DNA from: Halegenticoccus soli
GTDB taxonomy: Archaea > Halobacteriota > Halobacteria > Halobacteriales > Haloferacaceae
Reading direction: 5' to 3'
Length of the DNA: 64,000 nt
Assembly (NCBI RefSeq): GCF_002844195.1
Contig: NZ_PEND01000002.1
Coordinates: forward strand, 310,001 to 374,000
The notes under the pieces were generated by a model, which had not been told where the DNA came from, did no database searches, and worked only from the letters and a program-made list of their open reading frames with translations. Both the position numbers and the translations under genes were made by a program. Every line of letters begins with the position of its first letter. The first letter of the stretch is position 1. This document shows, one piece after another, positions 36,721-44,947 of the stretch.

Positions 36721-37323
36721 CTACCTCGACCGGCGCGCGCCGCCGACGTCGAGCACGCGGACGCTGTCGATTCCGACGACCGTGCACCCGTCGCGTGCGG
36801 ACGCTCCGACGAGGATCAGGAAGGCGTCGTCGGGTTCGAGTTCGAGGTCACGGACGCGGAACTTGAACACCGTGTCGTTCGTGCCGCTGCCGTTGACGTC
36901 CTCGACCGTGAACCGGATCGGCTCGGCGTACCGGCCGTCGGACGTCTCCAGCAGGCCCCGGATCTCCCGGCAGTTGCGGTCGTACGTCGGGTCCCGGTAG
37001 TCCTGGCAGCGGCCGAACGCCGCGTCGTACTCCCCCTTGACGGGGTAGAGCTTCACCGATCCGGGGGCGAACCGCGGCCAGCCGGCGGCCACGCTCACCA
37101 CCCCGTTACTCCCGGGGTTGATGGCATTCGGACAGCTGTCGGGCTTCACGTCGACCCAGCAGGCGCGACAGCAGTCGGTCGCCGCAGCCCGTCCCGCCAC
37201 AGCCGGCAGGACGAGGGCGGCGCCGGCCGCGACGGCCGCGCCGCTCCGCAGGACGCGCCGGCGGCTGACGCCGGTTTCGATTTCCGCTCCGCTCGACACC
37301 GCTGATTCGTTCCCGCGAATCAT
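36721..37323 (-). CDS. Tat-exported Cys-rich protein (copy 1)
   Basis: Exported protein of 200 aa. The Tat signal has R21-R23 (SRRRVLRSGAAVAAGAAL) and ends near VAGRAAAT. The mature part opens with CCRACWVDVKPDSCPNAI, resembling the IKPGSCPNPIN module found in many bacterial and archaeal surface proteins. Two internal Cys pairs and VEDVNGSGTNDTVFKF follow, which looks like a divergent calcium-binding DxNxDG loop. No anchor is seen. It is a paralogue of the gene immediately upstream (37607). Confidence 0.78.
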   Translation of the reverse strand: MIRGNESAVSSGAEIETGVSRRRVLRSGAAVAAGAALVLPAVAGRAAATDCCRACWVDVKPDSCPNAINPGSNGVVSVAAGWPRFAPGSVKLYPVKGEYDAAFGRCQDYRDPTYDRNCREIRGLLETSDGRYAEPIRFTVEDVNGSGTNDTVFKFRVRDLELEPDDAFLILVGASARDGCTVVGIDSVRVLDVGGARRSR

Positions 37324-37606: not shown

Positions 37607-38179
37607 TCAGCCGTCCGTGCGGACGTCCACCGCGTCGATTCCGATGACGCTGCAGTCGCCCTCGGCGTCGTGGCCGGCGAGGATCAGGTGCGCGTCGTCG
37701 GGTTCGAGTTCGAGGTCGGCGACCCGGACGGTGAATATCGTGTCGGGCGTTCCGTCGCCGTTCATGTCGAGCACCGCCCAGCTCTCGGGCCGCGCGAAGC
37801 GCCCGTCGCGCTCCGCGAGCAACTCCCTGATCCCCCGGCAGTCCCTGTCGTACCGCGGGTTCTGGAAGCTCTGACACCCGTCGAAGCCGGCGTCGACGGA
37901 CCCCTTCGTCGGAATGAACTTCACCTTCTCCGGGTCGAAATGCGGCCACCCGGCCGCGATCAGGATCACCTCGTCGTCGGGGACGATCGCGTTCGGACAG
38001 CAGTTGGGTTTCACGTCGACCCAGCAGACGCGACAGCAGGCGTGGGCGCTCGCTCGACCGGCGAGCGCGGGCAGGGCGACCGCGGCCGAGGCCGCGACGC
38101 CTCTCATGAACAGTCGGCGGTCGACGCCGCTCCGCGTTTCCGGGTCGCTCGGCGCCGTCTCCACGGGTTCGAAGGCCAT
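37607..38179 (-). CDS. Tat-exported Cys-rich protein (copy 2)
   Basis: Exported protein of 190 aa, start at the ATG at 38179 (another at 38191 in frame). The Tat motif is R21-R22 in VDRRLFMRGVAASAAVALP. The mature domain begins CCRVCWVDVKPNCCPNAI and keeps the Cys pattern of copy 1. It has a better calcium-loop match, DMNGDGTPDTIF, and the shared DLELEPDDAHLIL. A surface-exposed binding role is likely, but the partner is unknown. Confidence 0.78.
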   Translation of the reverse strand: MAFEPVETAPSDPETRSGVDRRLFMRGVAASAAVALPALAGRASAHACCRVCWVDVKPNCCPNAIVPDDEVILIAAGWPHFDPEKVKFIPTKGSVDAGFDGCQSFQNPRYDRDCRGIRELLAERDGRFARPESWAVLDMNGDGTPDTIFTVRVADLELEPDDAHLILAGHDAEGDCSVIGIDAVDVRTDG

Positions 38180-38481
38180 GTGGGGTAACATCGTCAAACA
38201 CGGAATTAGCACTGCCGGTACCGCCACGTCGAGCGATACGTCGTTTCGACGGGAAGAACGGTCGGTCCGTGTCGCGCGTTTCAACGGGGAGAGCGGTCGA
38301 CTCGTGCCCGTCGCCCGCCTCGGCGGGGCGGGCGCGCGGGCGGCCCGTCCGTCCCGGCGATCACCAACGCGTCCCGGCGATCCTCTCCGCGCCGGGCGGC
38401 GACACCCCGAGCCGACGCCGACAGCGGTTCCGTGTTCCGGAAGCACCGAGTTGATAACGGACGCCCGCACACAGGCAGGGT
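38180..38481. other. Divergent intergenic region
   Basis: 302 bp between the Tat gene and the M32 gene. A 13-bp direct repeat CGTCCCGGCGATC occurs at 38350-38362 and 38370-38382. A likely TATA for the M32 gene is GTTGATAAC at about 38451-38459. No gene seen. Confidence 0.4.
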
Positions 38482-40008
38482 ATGGCAACCGAAGCGAGTT
38501 CGGAGGAGGCTCCGGACGCCTATCGTCGCCTGATCGAGAAGGTCCAGCGGATCACGAACGTCGGCAACGCCGCCGGTCTGCTCTCCTGGGATCAGCAGGT
38601 GATGATGCCCGACGAGGGGACGCCCGCCCGTTCGAAGCAGCTGTCCGCCCTGTCGGCCATCAGCCACGACCTCCTCGTCGACGACGAGATGGGCGAGCTC
38701 CTCGACGAGCTGGAGTCGTCGGAGCTCTCCGACGACCAGGCGGCCGTCGTCCGCGAGGTCCGCCGGCGCTACGAGCGGGAAGCCCGCGTCCCGACGGACC
38801 TGGTCGAGGAGATCTCCGAGACCTCCTCGGAGGCGCTCCCCGCGTGGAAGGAGGCGAAGGCGGAGAACGACTTCTCGACGTTCGCCCCGTACCTGGAGAA
38901 GCACGTCGAACTCAAGCGGGAGTACGCCGAGCACGTCGACCCCGACCGCGACCCCTACGAGGTGCTGTTCGAGGACTACGAGCCGTACCTGTCGCTCGAA
39001 CGGGCCGAGGAGATCCTGGACCGCCTCAAGGAGACGCTGGTGCCGATGATCGACGAGATCCGCGAGTCGGACGCCGACCTCGCCGTCGACGCCTTCGCGG
39101 GGACGTTCGAGGAGGCCGAACAGGAGGCGCTGTTCCGCGACGCGCTCGACTTCCTCGGGTACCCCTGGGAGCGGGGCCGCCTCGACACCGCGCCGCACCC
39201 CTTCTCGATGGGGACGACGTTCGACGCGCGCGTGACCACGCGGTACGACGAGTCGGACCCCCTCGACGGGCTCATGTCGACCGTCCACGAGTTCGGCCAC
39301 GCCACCTACACCCTCGGCCTGCCCGACGATGCGTACGGCACGCCGCTCGGCCAGGCGCGGGACCTCTCCGTCCACGAGTCGCAGTCGCGCCTCTGGGAGA
39401 ACCACATCGGCAGATCGAAGGCGTTCTGGGAGGCGTTCCTCCCGACGTTCAAGGAGCACTTCCCGCAGAGCGAGGGCGTGACGGTCGAGGAGGCCTACGA
39501 GGCCGCGAACCAGGTGTACGAGGACAACGTCATCCGCGTCGAGGCGGACGAACTCACCTACCACCTGCACATCGTCGTCCGGTTCGAGATCGAGCGCGCC
39601 CTCGTCAGCGGCGACCTCGACGTCGAGGACGTCCCGGAGGTCTGGAACGACAAGTACGAGGAGTACCTCGGCATCCGCCCCGACACGGATTCCGAGGGTT
39701 GCCTCCAGGACATCCACTGGAGCCACGGCAACTTCGGGTACTTCCCGACCTACTCGCTCGGCAGCGTTATGGCCGCCCAGCTGTTCGCGGCCGCCGAGGA
39801 GGACGTCGGCGATCTCGACGGGAAGATCCGCGAGGGCGACTTCGACGACCTCCACGAGTGGCTGACGGAGAACGTCCACCGCCACGGTCAGCGGTACGAG
39901 ACGAACGAGCTGGTGCGGAAGGCGACCGGGGGGGACTTCACCGCCGACGCCTTCGTCGAGTACGTGACCGACAAGTACGGCGAGCTCTACGGCCTGGAAT
40001 CGGCCTGA
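38482..40008 (+). CDS. M32 family metallocarboxypeptidase
   Basis: Thermostable carboxypeptidase Taq-like enzyme of 508 aa. The zinc motif is H269-E270-F-G-H273 in STVHEFGHATYTL, followed by the ESQSRLWENHIGRS motif that supplies the third ligand and DIHWSHGNFGYFPTYSLG, both diagnostic for M32. The protein is mostly alpha-helical. It removes C-terminal residues from peptides in the cytosol. Full length. Confidence 0.95.
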   Translation: MATEASSEEAPDAYRRLIEKVQRITNVGNAAGLLSWDQQVMMPDEGTPARSKQLSALSAISHDLLVDDEMGELLDELESSELSDDQAAVVREVRRRYEREARVPTDLVEEISETSSEALPAWKEAKAENDFSTFAPYLEKHVELKREYAEHVDPDRDPYEVLFEDYEPYLSLERAEEILDRLKETLVPMIDEIRESDADLAVDAFAGTFEEAEQEALFRDALDFLGYPWERGRLDTAPHPFSMGTTFDARVTTRYDESDPLDGLMSTVHEFGHATYTLGLPDDAYGTPLGQARDLSVHESQSRLWENHIGRSKAFWEAFLPTFKEHFPQSEGVTVEEAYEAANQVYEDNVIRVEADELTYHLHIVVRFEIERALVSGDLDVEDVPEVWNDKYEEYLGIRPDTDSEGCLQDIHWSHGNFGYFPTYSLGSVMAAQLFAAAEEDVGDLDGKIREGDFDDLHEWLTENVHRHGQRYETNELVRKATGGDFTADAFVEYVTDKYGELYGLESA

Positions 40009-40788: not shown

Positions 40789-42630
40789 ATGAGCGATTCC
40801 GACGCCCACATCACCCGCCTGTTCGGCGGACCGGGCAGCGGGAAGACGACGGCGCTGCTCGACCGCGTCGACGAGATTCTCGACCGCGACGACGTGGAGA
40901 TCAGGGACGTGCTCGTCGTCTCGTACACCCGGGCCGCCGCCGCGGAGGTCCGCGAGCGCCTCGCGGAGCGACTCGACGCCTCGCCGCGCTCGCTGCAGGG
41001 GAACGTCTGCACGATGCACGCGAAGGCGTACGAACTGTTGAACCTCTCCCGCGGCGACGTGGTGAGCGAGAAGGACAAAAAGGGGTTCTGCGAGGAGTAC
41101 GGCATCGAGTACGAGGACGAGTACGGCGGGGCCGGCCGCCGGACCGCCCGCTCGACCACCATCGGCAACAAGATCATCGCCACGAGCCAGTGGCTCCAGC
41201 GCACCCGCCGGGAGGTCGCGGACTGGTACGACGTGCCGTTCCAGTGGAACGTCGAGAAGGTCCGCCTCCCGCCGGAGATCGATCCGAACGCCCAGGAGGG
41301 CAACAAGTACACGCCGACCTGGCCGTCGGACGACGACCGCGTCGACGTGCCGGAGGCCATCAGGGCGTGGCGTGCGTACAAGGGCGAACACGGGCTTGTC
41401 GGCTTCGCCGACATGCTCGAACGCGTCAAGCAGCGCTCGCTCGTGCCGAACGTGGACTTCCTCGTCATCGACGAGTTCCAGGACATCACCTCGCTCCAGT
41501 ACGAGGTGTACGAGGAGTGGAAGCCCCACATGGAGGGCGTTCTCATCGCCGGCGACGACGACCAGGTCGTCTACGCGTGGCAGGGCGCGGACCCGAACCT
41601 GCTCCTCGACGCCGACCGCGACGAGGACGTGGTGCTCCCCAACTCCTACCGGCTGCCGTCGCGCATCCTGCACGTCGTCAACCGGGAGATCAGGCACATC
41701 GACAAGCGCCAGGAGAAGGACCTCAAACCCCGCAAGGAGGGCGGGGCGGTCGAGGCGGTCGAGAGCCCCTCGATGCTCAACCTCGTCCGCAACGTGCGCT
41801 ACACCGTCCAGCAGGACGAGGGGAGCATCATGGTGCTGTTCCGGGCGCGCTACCAGATGTTCCAGTTCATCGACGAGTTCATCCGCGAGGGGATCCCGTT
41901 CAAGGTGCTCACCGACCAGCGGATGTGGACGGACCGCCTCACGCAGTACGTCCGCGCCGTCGAGCGCCTCTCGGACGACGAGCCGGTCACGGCCCTCCAG
42001 GCGCGCCGCCTCGCCGACATGCTCCAGGAGTCGGCCTTCGGGACGAACGACCGCGACGACCTGTTCACCCTCGTCGACGACTACGAGGCCGAGGCCGACG
42101 TCGACGACCTGGCCGAGATCGAGGTGCCGGCCGACGAGGTCCGGAACCTCGCGCCGTTCATGCCCGACGCCGCCTCCGCCGGCGACATGGTCCGGAAGGT
42201 GACGAGCTTCCAGCGCAAGTCGATCGCCGCCTACTTCGCCGGCGACTACGACGGGATGGACCCCAACCGGGTTCGCGTCGGCACCATCCACAGCGCGAAG
42301 GGTCGCGAGGCCGACCACGTCTTCGTCTCGACCGACCTCACCGAGAAGGTGGTCGAGCAGATGGCGGCGACCATCGAGGACCAGGGCGACGTGGAGGGGG
42401 TCGAGGAGTTCACGAAGACGACCGACCCCGTGCCGGTCCTGACGGACAACGAGCGCCGCGTCTTCTACGTCGGGATGAGCCGCGCCCGCGAGCGCCTGGT
42501 GCTCCTGGAGAACCTGATCGACGGCGCGCCGACGCTCCCGATCAGCGTCCTCCTGTACAACGAACTCCGCGACGCGCCGGCCGAGGAGATGCTGGCCGAG
42601 GCGCAGGAGCCCCCCGCGCCCGAGCCGTGA
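40789..42630 (+). CDS. UvrD/Rep-like superfamily I helicase
   Basis: ATP-dependent DNA helicase of 613 aa. Walker A is GGPGSGKTT at 13-21; motif II is DEFQD starting at D228; motif III GDDDQVVYAWQGADP, motif V GTIHSAKGREADHVF and motif VI YVGMSRARERLVL are intact. The region 60-200 differs from bacterial UvrD and marks the haloarchaeal subgroup. It probably serves repair or recombination. The M24-like gene starts eight bases after its stop. Confidence 0.92.
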   Translation: MSDSDAHITRLFGGPGSGKTTALLDRVDEILDRDDVEIRDVLVVSYTRAAAAEVRERLAERLDASPRSLQGNVCTMHAKAYELLNLSRGDVVSEKDKKGFCEEYGIEYEDEYGGAGRRTARSTTIGNKIIATSQWLQRTRREVADWYDVPFQWNVEKVRLPPEIDPNAQEGNKYTPTWPSDDDRVDVPEAIRAWRAYKGEHGLVGFADMLERVKQRSLVPNVDFLVIDEFQDITSLQYEVYEEWKPHMEGVLIAGDDDQVVYAWQGADPNLLLDADRDEDVVLPNSYRLPSRILHVVNREIRHIDKRQEKDLKPRKEGGAVEAVESPSMLNLVRNVRYTVQQDEGSIMVLFRARYQMFQFIDEFIREGIPFKVLTDQRMWTDRLTQYVRAVERLSDDEPVTALQARRLADMLQESAFGTNDRDDLFTLVDDYEAEADVDDLAEIEVPADEVRNLAPFMPDAASAGDMVRKVTSFQRKSIAAYFAGDYDGMDPNRVRVGTIHSAKGREADHVFVSTDLTEKVVEQMAATIEDQGDVEGVEEFTKTTDPVPVLTDNERRVFYVGMSRARERLVLLENLIDGAPTLPISVLLYNELRDAPAEEMLAEAQEPPAPEP

Positions 42631-42637
42631 TCGAGTC

Positions 42638-43888
42638 GTGACCCCGCCAACCGGCGATCCCTCTCCGCCGTTCACCGACTCCCCCGAATCGTCCACTGAC
42701 TCCTCCCCGTCGTCCACCGATTCCCCCCCGTCGCCGCCCGCGGGCTTCGACTTCCTCGACCGGGCGCTCGCCGAGCGCGGGGCGGCCGCGTTCGTCCACG
42801 TCGGCGACCGCTTCGACGCCGACCTCCGGTACCTCTGCGGCGTCGCCGGGTACGACGGCGAGGCGGCGTTCGTCTCGACCGGCGACCGGGCGGTCCTCTC
42901 GGTTCCGTCGCCCGCGAGCGGGCGGGCGGACCCCGCGTTCGGGGGCGAGGTGCGGGCGCACGACCTCGACGCCTCCGCCGGAGAGCGGGCGTCCCGGATC
43001 CTCTCCGATCTGCTCGACGGAACGGACGGGAACACGGTGCTGGTCCCGCGACACGTCCCGCACGACGCGGCGGTCTACCTGCGGCGGACGGGGCACGAGG
43101 TGGCGTCGACCCGCGCGGTCGCCCGCGCCCGCGCGGTGAAGACCGGCGACGAGCTCGACCGCCTCCGTCGGGCGCAGCGCGCCGCGACGCGAGCGATGGC
43201 TCGCGCGGAGGCGATCCTCGCCGAGTCGACGCCCGAAGGCGACGCGCTCGTCTGGAACGACGACCCCCTCTCGGCCGAGCGCCTCCGTCGGCGGGCGAAC
43301 GAGACGCTCGCCGGCCGCGGCGCGAGCGACGCCGGGAACACCGCCGTCGAAGTCGGCGGAGGGGGAGGTTTCCCGGGCGAGGGACGAGACGCCGGCGAGG
43401 AGCGGTCGGCGGACGCCGCCGAACTCAGCCCGGGCGAAACCGTCACCGTCCGCCTCGCCCCGCGCGGGCCGCACGGCTACCACGGCTTTCTCCGCCGGAC
43501 GTTCGTCGTCGAGGGCGACGGCGGCTGGGAGCGGCGAGCCCACGTGGCCGCCGAGGCCGCGCTGAACGCGGGGCTCGCGCACGCCAAACCGGGGGAATCG
43601 GCGCGAACCGTCCGCGAGGAGGTGCTCGCGGAGGTCGCGGCGTACGGGTTCGATCCGGACGCGTCGGTCGTCGGCGACGCCGGACACGGGGTCGGCCTCG
43701 ACCGCCGCGAGGCCCCGCGGCTGACGGGCGAGAGCGCCCTCGAAGCCGGGAACGTCCTGGCAGTCACCGCGGGCGTCGACGACCCGGACGAGGGTCGCGT
43801 CCTGCTCTCGGATCTGGCGGCCGTCACCGACGAGGGGTGCGAACTGCTCGGCGAGTACCCGCGGTCGATCGTCCCTCGGAGCCGCTAG
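42638..43888 (+). CDS. M24 (Xaa-Pro peptidase-like) homologue lacking metal ligands
   Basis: Protein of 416 aa with GTG start, a Ser/Pro/Asp-rich N-terminal tail (to about 35), an N-terminal creatinase-like domain and a pita-bread domain. The fold motifs can be aligned but ligands are changed. VDLG becomes VRLA, GYxSDxTRT becomes GYHGFLRRT, TIEPG becomes AVTAG, and the RIED position reads LLSD. Only the GHGVGL histidine remains. The protein should not act as a dinuclear metallopeptidase. It is coupled to the helicase upstream. Confidence 0.8.
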   Translation: MTPPTGDPSPPFTDSPESSTDSSPSSTDSPPSPPAGFDFLDRALAERGAAAFVHVGDRFDADLRYLCGVAGYDGEAAFVSTGDRAVLSVPSPASGRADPAFGGEVRAHDLDASAGERASRILSDLLDGTDGNTVLVPRHVPHDAAVYLRRTGHEVASTRAVARARAVKTGDELDRLRRAQRAATRAMARAEAILAESTPEGDALVWNDDPLSAERLRRRANETLAGRGASDAGNTAVEVGGGGGFPGEGRDAGEERSADAAELSPGETVTVRLAPRGPHGYHGFLRRTFVVEGDGGWERRAHVAAEAALNAGLAHAKPGESARTVREEVLAEVAAYGFDPDASVVGDAGHGVGLDRREAPRLTGESALEAGNVLAVTAGVDDPDEGRVLLSDLAAVTDEGCELLGEYPRSIVPRSR

Positions 43889-43927: not shown

Positions 43928-44197
43928 CTACTCCTCCCGCGTCCGGCGCGCGTCGTCCCCCTCGGGGTCCTTCACCGCCTTTCCGATCGTCGCCTCGGCG
44001 AGTTTCGACGGCACGTCGCCCGGCGTCGTCAGCTTCTGCGGCAGCAGCACCATCAGGACCGCTACGACGAGCAGCGCCCCCCCGAGGAACGTCCGCCCGT
44101 CGAGCAGCGCGTTCAGCCCGAACATCCCGACCGGAAGCGCGAAGATCAGCGTCGCCCCCAGGCCGATCATCTCCAGAATACCTATTCTCGCCCGCAT
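43928..44197 (-). CDS. Two-helix membrane protein (DUF7533-like)
   Basis: Protein of 89 aa with start at the ATG at 44197. Two membrane helices (about 9-30 and 36-52) are followed by a cytosolic tail with LPQKLTTPGDVPSKLAEA and an acidic end. Conserved, uncharacterised haloarchaeal family. Divergent from riboflavin synthase. Confidence 0.7.
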   Translation of the reverse strand: MRARIGILEMIGLGATLIFALPVGMFGLNALLDGRTFLGGALLVVAVLMVLLPQKLTTPGDVPSKLAEATIGKAVKDPEGDDARRTREE

Positions 44198-44293: not shown

Positions 44294-44947
44294 ATGTTCA
44301 CCGGGATCGTCGAGGGGACCGGCGAGATCGTCGGGGTCGAGGACGCCGAGAGCGGCCGTCACCTTCGCATTCGGGCGTCGGATCTGGACGACCTCCACCA
44401 CGGACAGTCGATCAGCGTGAGCGGCGTCTGTCTCACGGTCGAAGCGTTCGGCGACGACTCCGACGAGGGCGACCCGGCCGACCGCTGGTTCGAGGTGTTT
44501 CTCGCGGCCGAGACGGTCGACAGAACCTACCTCGGCGCGGTCGATGAGGGCGACCGGGTGAACGTCGAACGCGCCCTCCGGGCGGACGGTCGGCTCGACG
44601 GGCACGTCGTTCAGGGTCACGTGGACGCGACGACCACCGTCGAGGGGATCGAGCGAGTCGGGGACGACTGGCGCTTCGAGTTCGCCGTCCCCGAGGGCCT
44701 GGAACGGTACATCGTGAGCAAGGGATCGATCGCGCTCGACGGGATCAGCCTCACGGTGGCGGAGCGGACCGACGACCGGTTCGCCGCGGCGATCATCCCG
44801 ACGACGTACCGGCTCACGACCCTCTCGGAGAAGGCGGTGGGGGACCCGGTCCACGTCGAGGTCGACGTGATCGCGAAGTACGTGGAGCGAATGCTCGGGG
44901 GGTACCGGGAGCGACTGACGGGCGTCGGGTCGCCGTCGCCGGAGTGA
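44294..44947 (+). CDS. ribE: Riboflavin synthase, alpha-subunit type
   Basis: Enzyme of 217 aa that dismutates two 6,7-dimethyl-8-ribityllumazine molecules to riboflavin. The two lumazine-binding barrels are seen: MFTGIVEGTGEI with SVSGVCLTV in the first, and HVVQGHVDATTTVEG with IALDGISLTV in the second. A 15-residue acidic insert (GDDSDEGDPADRW) extends a loop in the first barrel. This is the bacterial-type enzyme, also usual in haloarchaea. Confidence 0.95.
   Translation: MFTGIVEGTGEIVGVEDAESGRHLRIRASDLDDLHHGQSISVSGVCLTVEAFGDDSDEGDPADRWFEVFLAAETVDRTYLGAVDEGDRVNVERALRADGRLDGHVVQGHVDATTTVEGIERVGDDWRFEFAVPEGLERYIVSKGSIALDGISLTVAERTDDRFAAAIIPTTYRLTTLSEKAVGDPVHVEVDVIAKYVERMLGGYRERLTGVGSPSPE

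Follow-up and report, generated by a model that had tools for sequence, protein, structure and literature searches.

The helicase-M24 locus

The window (the whole 64,000-nucleotide stretch of Halegenticoccus soli DNA that was analyzed) carries a UvrD-like helicase gene followed on the same strand by a gene with an M24 peptidase fold.

40789..42630, + strand: UvrD/PcrA-like SF1 helicase, 613 aa (PF00580, 1.3e-28; PF13361, 4.1e-15)
42638..43888, + strand: M24-fold pseudo-peptidase ORF, 416 aa, GTG start

The two genes are separated by 7 bases (the helicase stop ends at 42630 and the GTG is at 42638), which corrects the 8-bp gap given in an earlier sequence-only reading of this DNA. Downstream of the pair are a small predicted membrane ORF (43928-44197, - strand), with matches in 96 fetched loci, and a riboflavin synthase gene (ribE, lumazine-binding; 44294-44947, + strand), with matches in 69. 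Elsewhere in the window, two adjacent paralogue-like ORFs (36721-37323 and 37607-38488, both - strand) have a twin-arginine-like signal and a common CCR-CWVDVKP stretch.

We analyzed the 416-aa protein against Pfam and found PF00557 (Peptidase_M24) as its sole domain, covering residues 175-398 with an E-value of 3.9e-19 and a score of 69.7 bits, where the cut-off is 23. An AlphaFold2 model built with 119 related sequences (pLDDT 90.9, pTM 0.87) contained the complete two-lobed pita-bread fold, with low confidence at residues 1 to ~30 and in the loop 243-251 (pLDDT <50). The top structural matches were prolidases and Xaa-Pro peptidases, namely 1wy2 from P. horikoshii (Z 37.0 over 334 residues), 3q6d (Z 36.8) and 1pv9 (Z 35.4), and the sequence itself matched 1pv9 with an E-value of 6.3e-9. 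The window protein is therefore an M24 homologue of the Xaa-Pro peptidase/prolidase type, and resembles the M24B Xaa-Pro dipeptidases and aminopeptidases (prolidase, PepQ, YpdF) over its whole length. Seven other M24 matches were found in the same genome.

Loss of the metal site in the window copy

The residues at the metal site were assigned by alignment to intact references, which were two paralogues from the same genome (L002 and L001) and orthologues. They are listed here together with a motif that is considered below.

43451..43453, + strand: Arg272, replaces metal ligand Asp1
43487..43489, + strand: Phe284, replaces metal ligand Asp2
43520..43537, + strand: GGWERR motif, residues 295-300; G295, G296, R299 and R300 unchanged across linked copies, whether intact or dead
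43685..43687, + strand: His350 (GHGVGL), sole metal ligand retained
43706..43708, + strand: Arg357, replaces the second active-site His (HExP)
43766..43768, + strand: Thr377, replaces metal ligand Glu1
43808..43810, + strand: Ser391, replaces metal ligand Glu2

The five ligand columns are D,D,H,E,E in active M24 members but R,F,H,T,S in the window copy, and the second histidine of active members (HExP) is Arg357. Compared with the M24B prolidases, the window copy thus has four of the five metal ligands and the second histidine replaced. The catalytic-His column was also without a histidine, although this column is near the poorly aligned, low-confidence loop. Since 58 orthologues have D,D,H,E,E,H,H at these positions, the register of the ligand columns is not in doubt. 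The sequence-only reading had proposed that all four acidic ligands were replaced, that the second histidine had become arginine and that GHGVGL persisted within an M24 fold; the alignment bore this out at every position, no acidic residue was placed at a ligand position, and the confident full-length model agreed.

Conservation of the gene pair in haloarchaea

Helicase matches were present in 291 of the 292 genomes sampled from the class, most with E-values near 0. The M24 gene lay directly 3' of this same helicase in five of the nine haloarchaeal families examined, and it was the next gene downstream in 37 of 40 loci picked by the helicase alone; the three loci without it were L078 and L079 (family f3) and L085 (f10). 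A further 54 helicase loci of families f3, f6 and f8 had no M24 gene within about 1.3-1.5 kb. At L085 ribE begins ~22 bases after the helicase, and at L079 it is followed by the membrane ORF and ribE, indicating that the helicase slot exists without the M24 gene. Because four families (f3, f6, f8 and f10) have the helicase alone, the helicase is not strictly dependent on its neighbor.

Combining the helicase-chosen and M24-chosen loci, and omitting the duplicate L089, gave 139 linked copies, which confirmed that the pair is syntenic in other haloarchaea. Among these, 134 start between -11 and +25 bases from the helicase stop, as judged from starts picked mechanically near the helicase end. The window gene fits the helicase-linked M24 orthologue group as we define it here, being on the same strand and next downstream and having the GG-W-x-RR motif and Glu332. 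A search of genome contigs also found a related locus (L039) in Natronocalculus amylovorans. At two loci of genus g10, L064 and L113, the helicase is separated by other ORFs from an intact M24 gene, which starts 907 and 633 bases past the helicase, respectively.

Open frames of ~1000 aa raised the idea of a helicase-M24 gene fusion; this was rejected, as a stop separates the genes in the loci read, with one stop each in 30 of 30 in-frame loci. A read-through fusion model of 30 paired loci reached a pLDDT of 67.5 and a pTM of 0.44, with the helicase part unfolded and much of it below 50. We also considered whether the Pro-rich C-terminal tail of the helicase (PEPEP) might be bound by the Xaa-Pro fold and dropped the idea for want of a clean correlation: the tail is common in family f1 with both intact and dead copies, and f7 has the M24 gene without the tail. 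Five helicase columns were conserved with the M24 gene and free without it, and none the opposite way; we set this comparison aside as too small and confounded by phylogeny.

Intact and dead copies in the same slot

All five ligands and both histidines were present in 58 of the 139 linked copies, while the remaining 81 were without at least one ligand. Because of these 58 intact syntenic copies, the helicase-linked M24 family as a whole is not one of pseudoenzymes. Ligand loss was mostly all-or-nothing, the only intermediates being L100 (4/5 ligands) and L111 (3/5); the other altered copies retain 0-2. Nine unlinked homologues (L133, L156-L160, L162, L166 and L167) were all intact, so that ligand loss was found in linked copies only. 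Both states occur within genus g14, where 13 linked copies are intact and 9 are altered, and every linked copy was dead in families f4 (17/17) and f7 (8/8). Two tandem M24 copies were found in no linked locus. In genome G122 a dead linked copy (L055) coexists with an intact unlinked one (L133), and G166 and G178 have the same arrangement; a division of labor between such copies is possible.

An uninterrupted frame was retained in 80 of the 81 dead copies, a count to be read with the fact that finding loci by similarity favors open frames. The exception, L052 (genome G056, g14), has its M24 frame broken into pieces in two frames, which reflects either recent pseudogenization or an error in sequencing. 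The linked genes at four loci of genus g24 (L048-L051) are short (210-222 aa) and have neither N-lobe, metal site nor GHGVG; RTFVVDG-GGW-RRA and AEL-AYGL are retained in all three of the short forms that were inspected. The residues that replace the ligands vary between dead lineages. Four other changes (S274A, Y282H, V354L and H357R in window numbering) recur in separate dead lineages, including the dead g14 rows. They could be remodelling, and biased mutation may also have caused them, H to R and Y to H being single transitions that raise G+C.

History of the losses

On the helicase tree at least 12 changes between the intact and dead states were required, or 14 when absence was counted as a third state. 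The M24 tree (thinned to 114 rows, with g24 and L052 omitted), which carries a long-branch warning, required only 5 changes because 56 dead rows form one clade in it (SH-aLRT 99). We built a second M24 tree from 54 rows chosen from the set, with 87 constrained columns dropped and a mixture model. Here g6 left the dead clade for its helicase-tree neighbors g8 and g25, 17 dead rows from f1, f4 and f7 stayed joined (support 98), and the count was again 5. A single clade of all dead rows was rejected on both the 114-row tree (p-AU 0.042) and the 54-row tree (p-AU 5.6e-5), and the dead g14 rows and L142 were placed among intact relatives in both. Since the outgroup of nine unlinked rows is entirely intact, we take the intact state as ancestral. 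We therefore claim several independent losses of the metal site, between 5 and 12 on these trees, with loss also within a single genus.

Selection and retained residues

We compared dN/dS (NG86) in printed pairs, up to four per group, and found values of 0.196-0.579 in dead groups and 0.128-0.410 in intact groups; in nearly all of these pairs the helicase value was below that of the M24 gene. To place the dead copies against neutrality, six dead pairs were compared with simulations. Their dN/dS of 0.27-0.46 was under all 60 neutral simulations (lowest 0.67) in 6 of 6 pairs, and only 2 of the 60 neutral simulations of the window pair were free of stops. The dead copies are thus relaxed but still constrained, evolving faster than the intact ones and yet below neutral. 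The proposal that a maintained pseudoenzyme is coupled to the helicase agreed well with these values and with the synteny.

An alignment of 119 sequences (the window copy and 118 linked copies) had 17 invariant columns: P137, H142, K168, E172, G280, R287, T288, G295, G296, R299, R300, E332, G337, G351, G353, E358 and P360. None of these is a metal ligand. The 17 positions hold in 58/58 intact and 76/76 full-length dead copies (L052 and the four g24 rows omitted). Nine of them (K168, E172, R287, T288, G337, G351, G353, E358 and P360) belong to the general M24 scaffold, since they are also present in both paralogues. On the other hand, G296, R300 and E332 are specific to linked copies, occurring in only 0/9, 1/9 and 2/9 unlinked homologues, respectively. 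In the AlphaFold2 model the GGW-RR motif comes after the strand 285-290, where helix 297-314 begins, and helix 322-334 contains E332. Judged from the known fold, the GGW-RR region would be an exposed face. R300 and E332 may form an internal salt bridge.

Relation to known systems

The sequence-only reading had drawn a parallel with FACT/Spt16. This held for the fold only: the Spt16 N-terminal domain has the same two lobes (5ce6, Z 31.3, rmsd 3.6, 361 aligned), and prolidases are closer (Z up to 37). An excerpt of PMC4741192 describes that domain as an inactive aminopeptidase that binds H3/H4. The window protein differs from Spt16 in standing alone at 416 aa with no fused Spt16 domains, and in having close relatives that keep the active site. 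A second M24-family pseudopeptidase, EBP1/PA2G4, retains 2/5 metal ligands according to part of PMC11266112. EBP1 is of the methionine-aminopeptidase type, while the loss in the window family is recurrent among syntenic orthologues. On the helicase side, a possible counterpart is HVO_0415 of Haloferax volcanii, named UvrD, whose deletion mutant had no UV sensitivity and which is thought to be redundant; the excerpted text of that report mentions no M24 partner (PMC7776575). The neighboring tag, HVO_0416, is a small CPXCG protein in an excerpt of PMC6560208. Our searches of open-licence PMC papers showed no report of the helicase-M24 pair or of recurrent M24 inactivation. M24 pseudopeptidases were already known from EBP1 and Spt16, and it is the recurrent loss in one operon slot that is of real interest.

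Interpretation

The account toward which we lean is that the linked gene encodes a binding protein associated with the helicase, one that evolved from an enzyme and in which catalysis was dispensable and was lost several times. The gene would descend from an active Xaa-Pro-type M24 metallopeptidase that became the operon partner of the haloarchaeal UvrD-like helicase. It probably keeps a second, non-enzymatic job, and the simplest account is a function for which the fold and the GGW-RR region are required and the metal is not. That job would most likely be binding of the helicase or of something the helicase meets on DNA; given the shared operon, the likeliest partner is the helicase itself or the DNA or proteins around it. 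It might be carried by a part of the C-lobe, the RTFVV-GGW-x-RR strand-loop-helix and the next helix with Glu332. Catalysis would have been an additional activity with which the protein could eventually dispense, and several lineages, the window genome among them, would have lost it. An adaptor role in DNA metabolism, as had been suggested from the sequence, is plausible.

Several other explanations were weighed against this one. Slow decay of the gene, with catalysis useless in some lineages and its operon place holding it for a time, is favored by the higher dN/dS of dead groups, the truncated g24 forms, the broken frame of L052 and the absence of the gene from the f3, f6, f8 and f10 loci. 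We consider such drift toward loss improbable, as dN/dS was under every neutral simulation in all six pairs, 80 of 81 dead copies keep one frame (with the bias toward open frames noted above), the gene is dead and yet kept throughout f4 and f7, and 17 residues are invariant. It is somewhat unlikely that the protein is a maintained binder unrelated to the helicase, the two genes being merely on a common transcript. Four families do have the helicase without the M24 gene, and the membrane ORF and ribE are also conserved neighbors in a generally syntenic region; however, linked copies have common residues missing from unlinked homologues, and only linked copies have lost ligands.

Creatinase carries out metal-free catalysis in an M24-type fold, and creatinase structures are among the close folds (1chm and 1kp0, both Z 33.3). 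A changed enzyme of that kind is nevertheless very improbable here, since replacements at the ligand columns differ by lineage, which leaves no common new active site, and the catalytic-His column is lost too. The number of losses would shrink if one ancient dead allele or paralogue had spread by recombination into the helicase slot. The M24 tree speaks for this, as it joins 56 dead rows so that 5 changes suffice, and 17 dead rows of f1, f4 and f7 still join without the 87 constrained columns. We regard such a spread as unlikely, because one clade of all dead rows was rejected, g6 moved to g8 and g25 once the constrained columns were dropped, neither M24 tree separates the dead g14 rows or L142 from their intact relatives, and no linked locus has tandem copies.

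Homology, loss of the site, synteny of intact and dead copies, purifying selection and invariant non-catalytic residues were all shown. Going beyond these, we infer a binding function for the retained role, with the helicase as the partner. A bolder form of the helicase-associated reading, which we put forward tentatively and hold to be possible though somewhat doubtful, is that a dedicated haloarchaeal helicase cofactor was recruited from a peptidase and became a pseudoenzyme several times in parallel, that the GGW-RR region is the retained interaction surface, and that the non-catalytic role came before catalysis and outlasted it.

Pseudoenzymes are mostly encountered once their evolution is complete, whereas here intact and dead copies occupy the same operon slot in related species. 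The order of events, the first function and the need for catalysis thus become testable by copy swaps in a tractable haloarchaeon, and on the bolder reading these orthologues, some of them within one genus, would form a natural series. The M24 protein is also a candidate accessory factor of the helicase, which is conserved in archaea and whose role is unclear.
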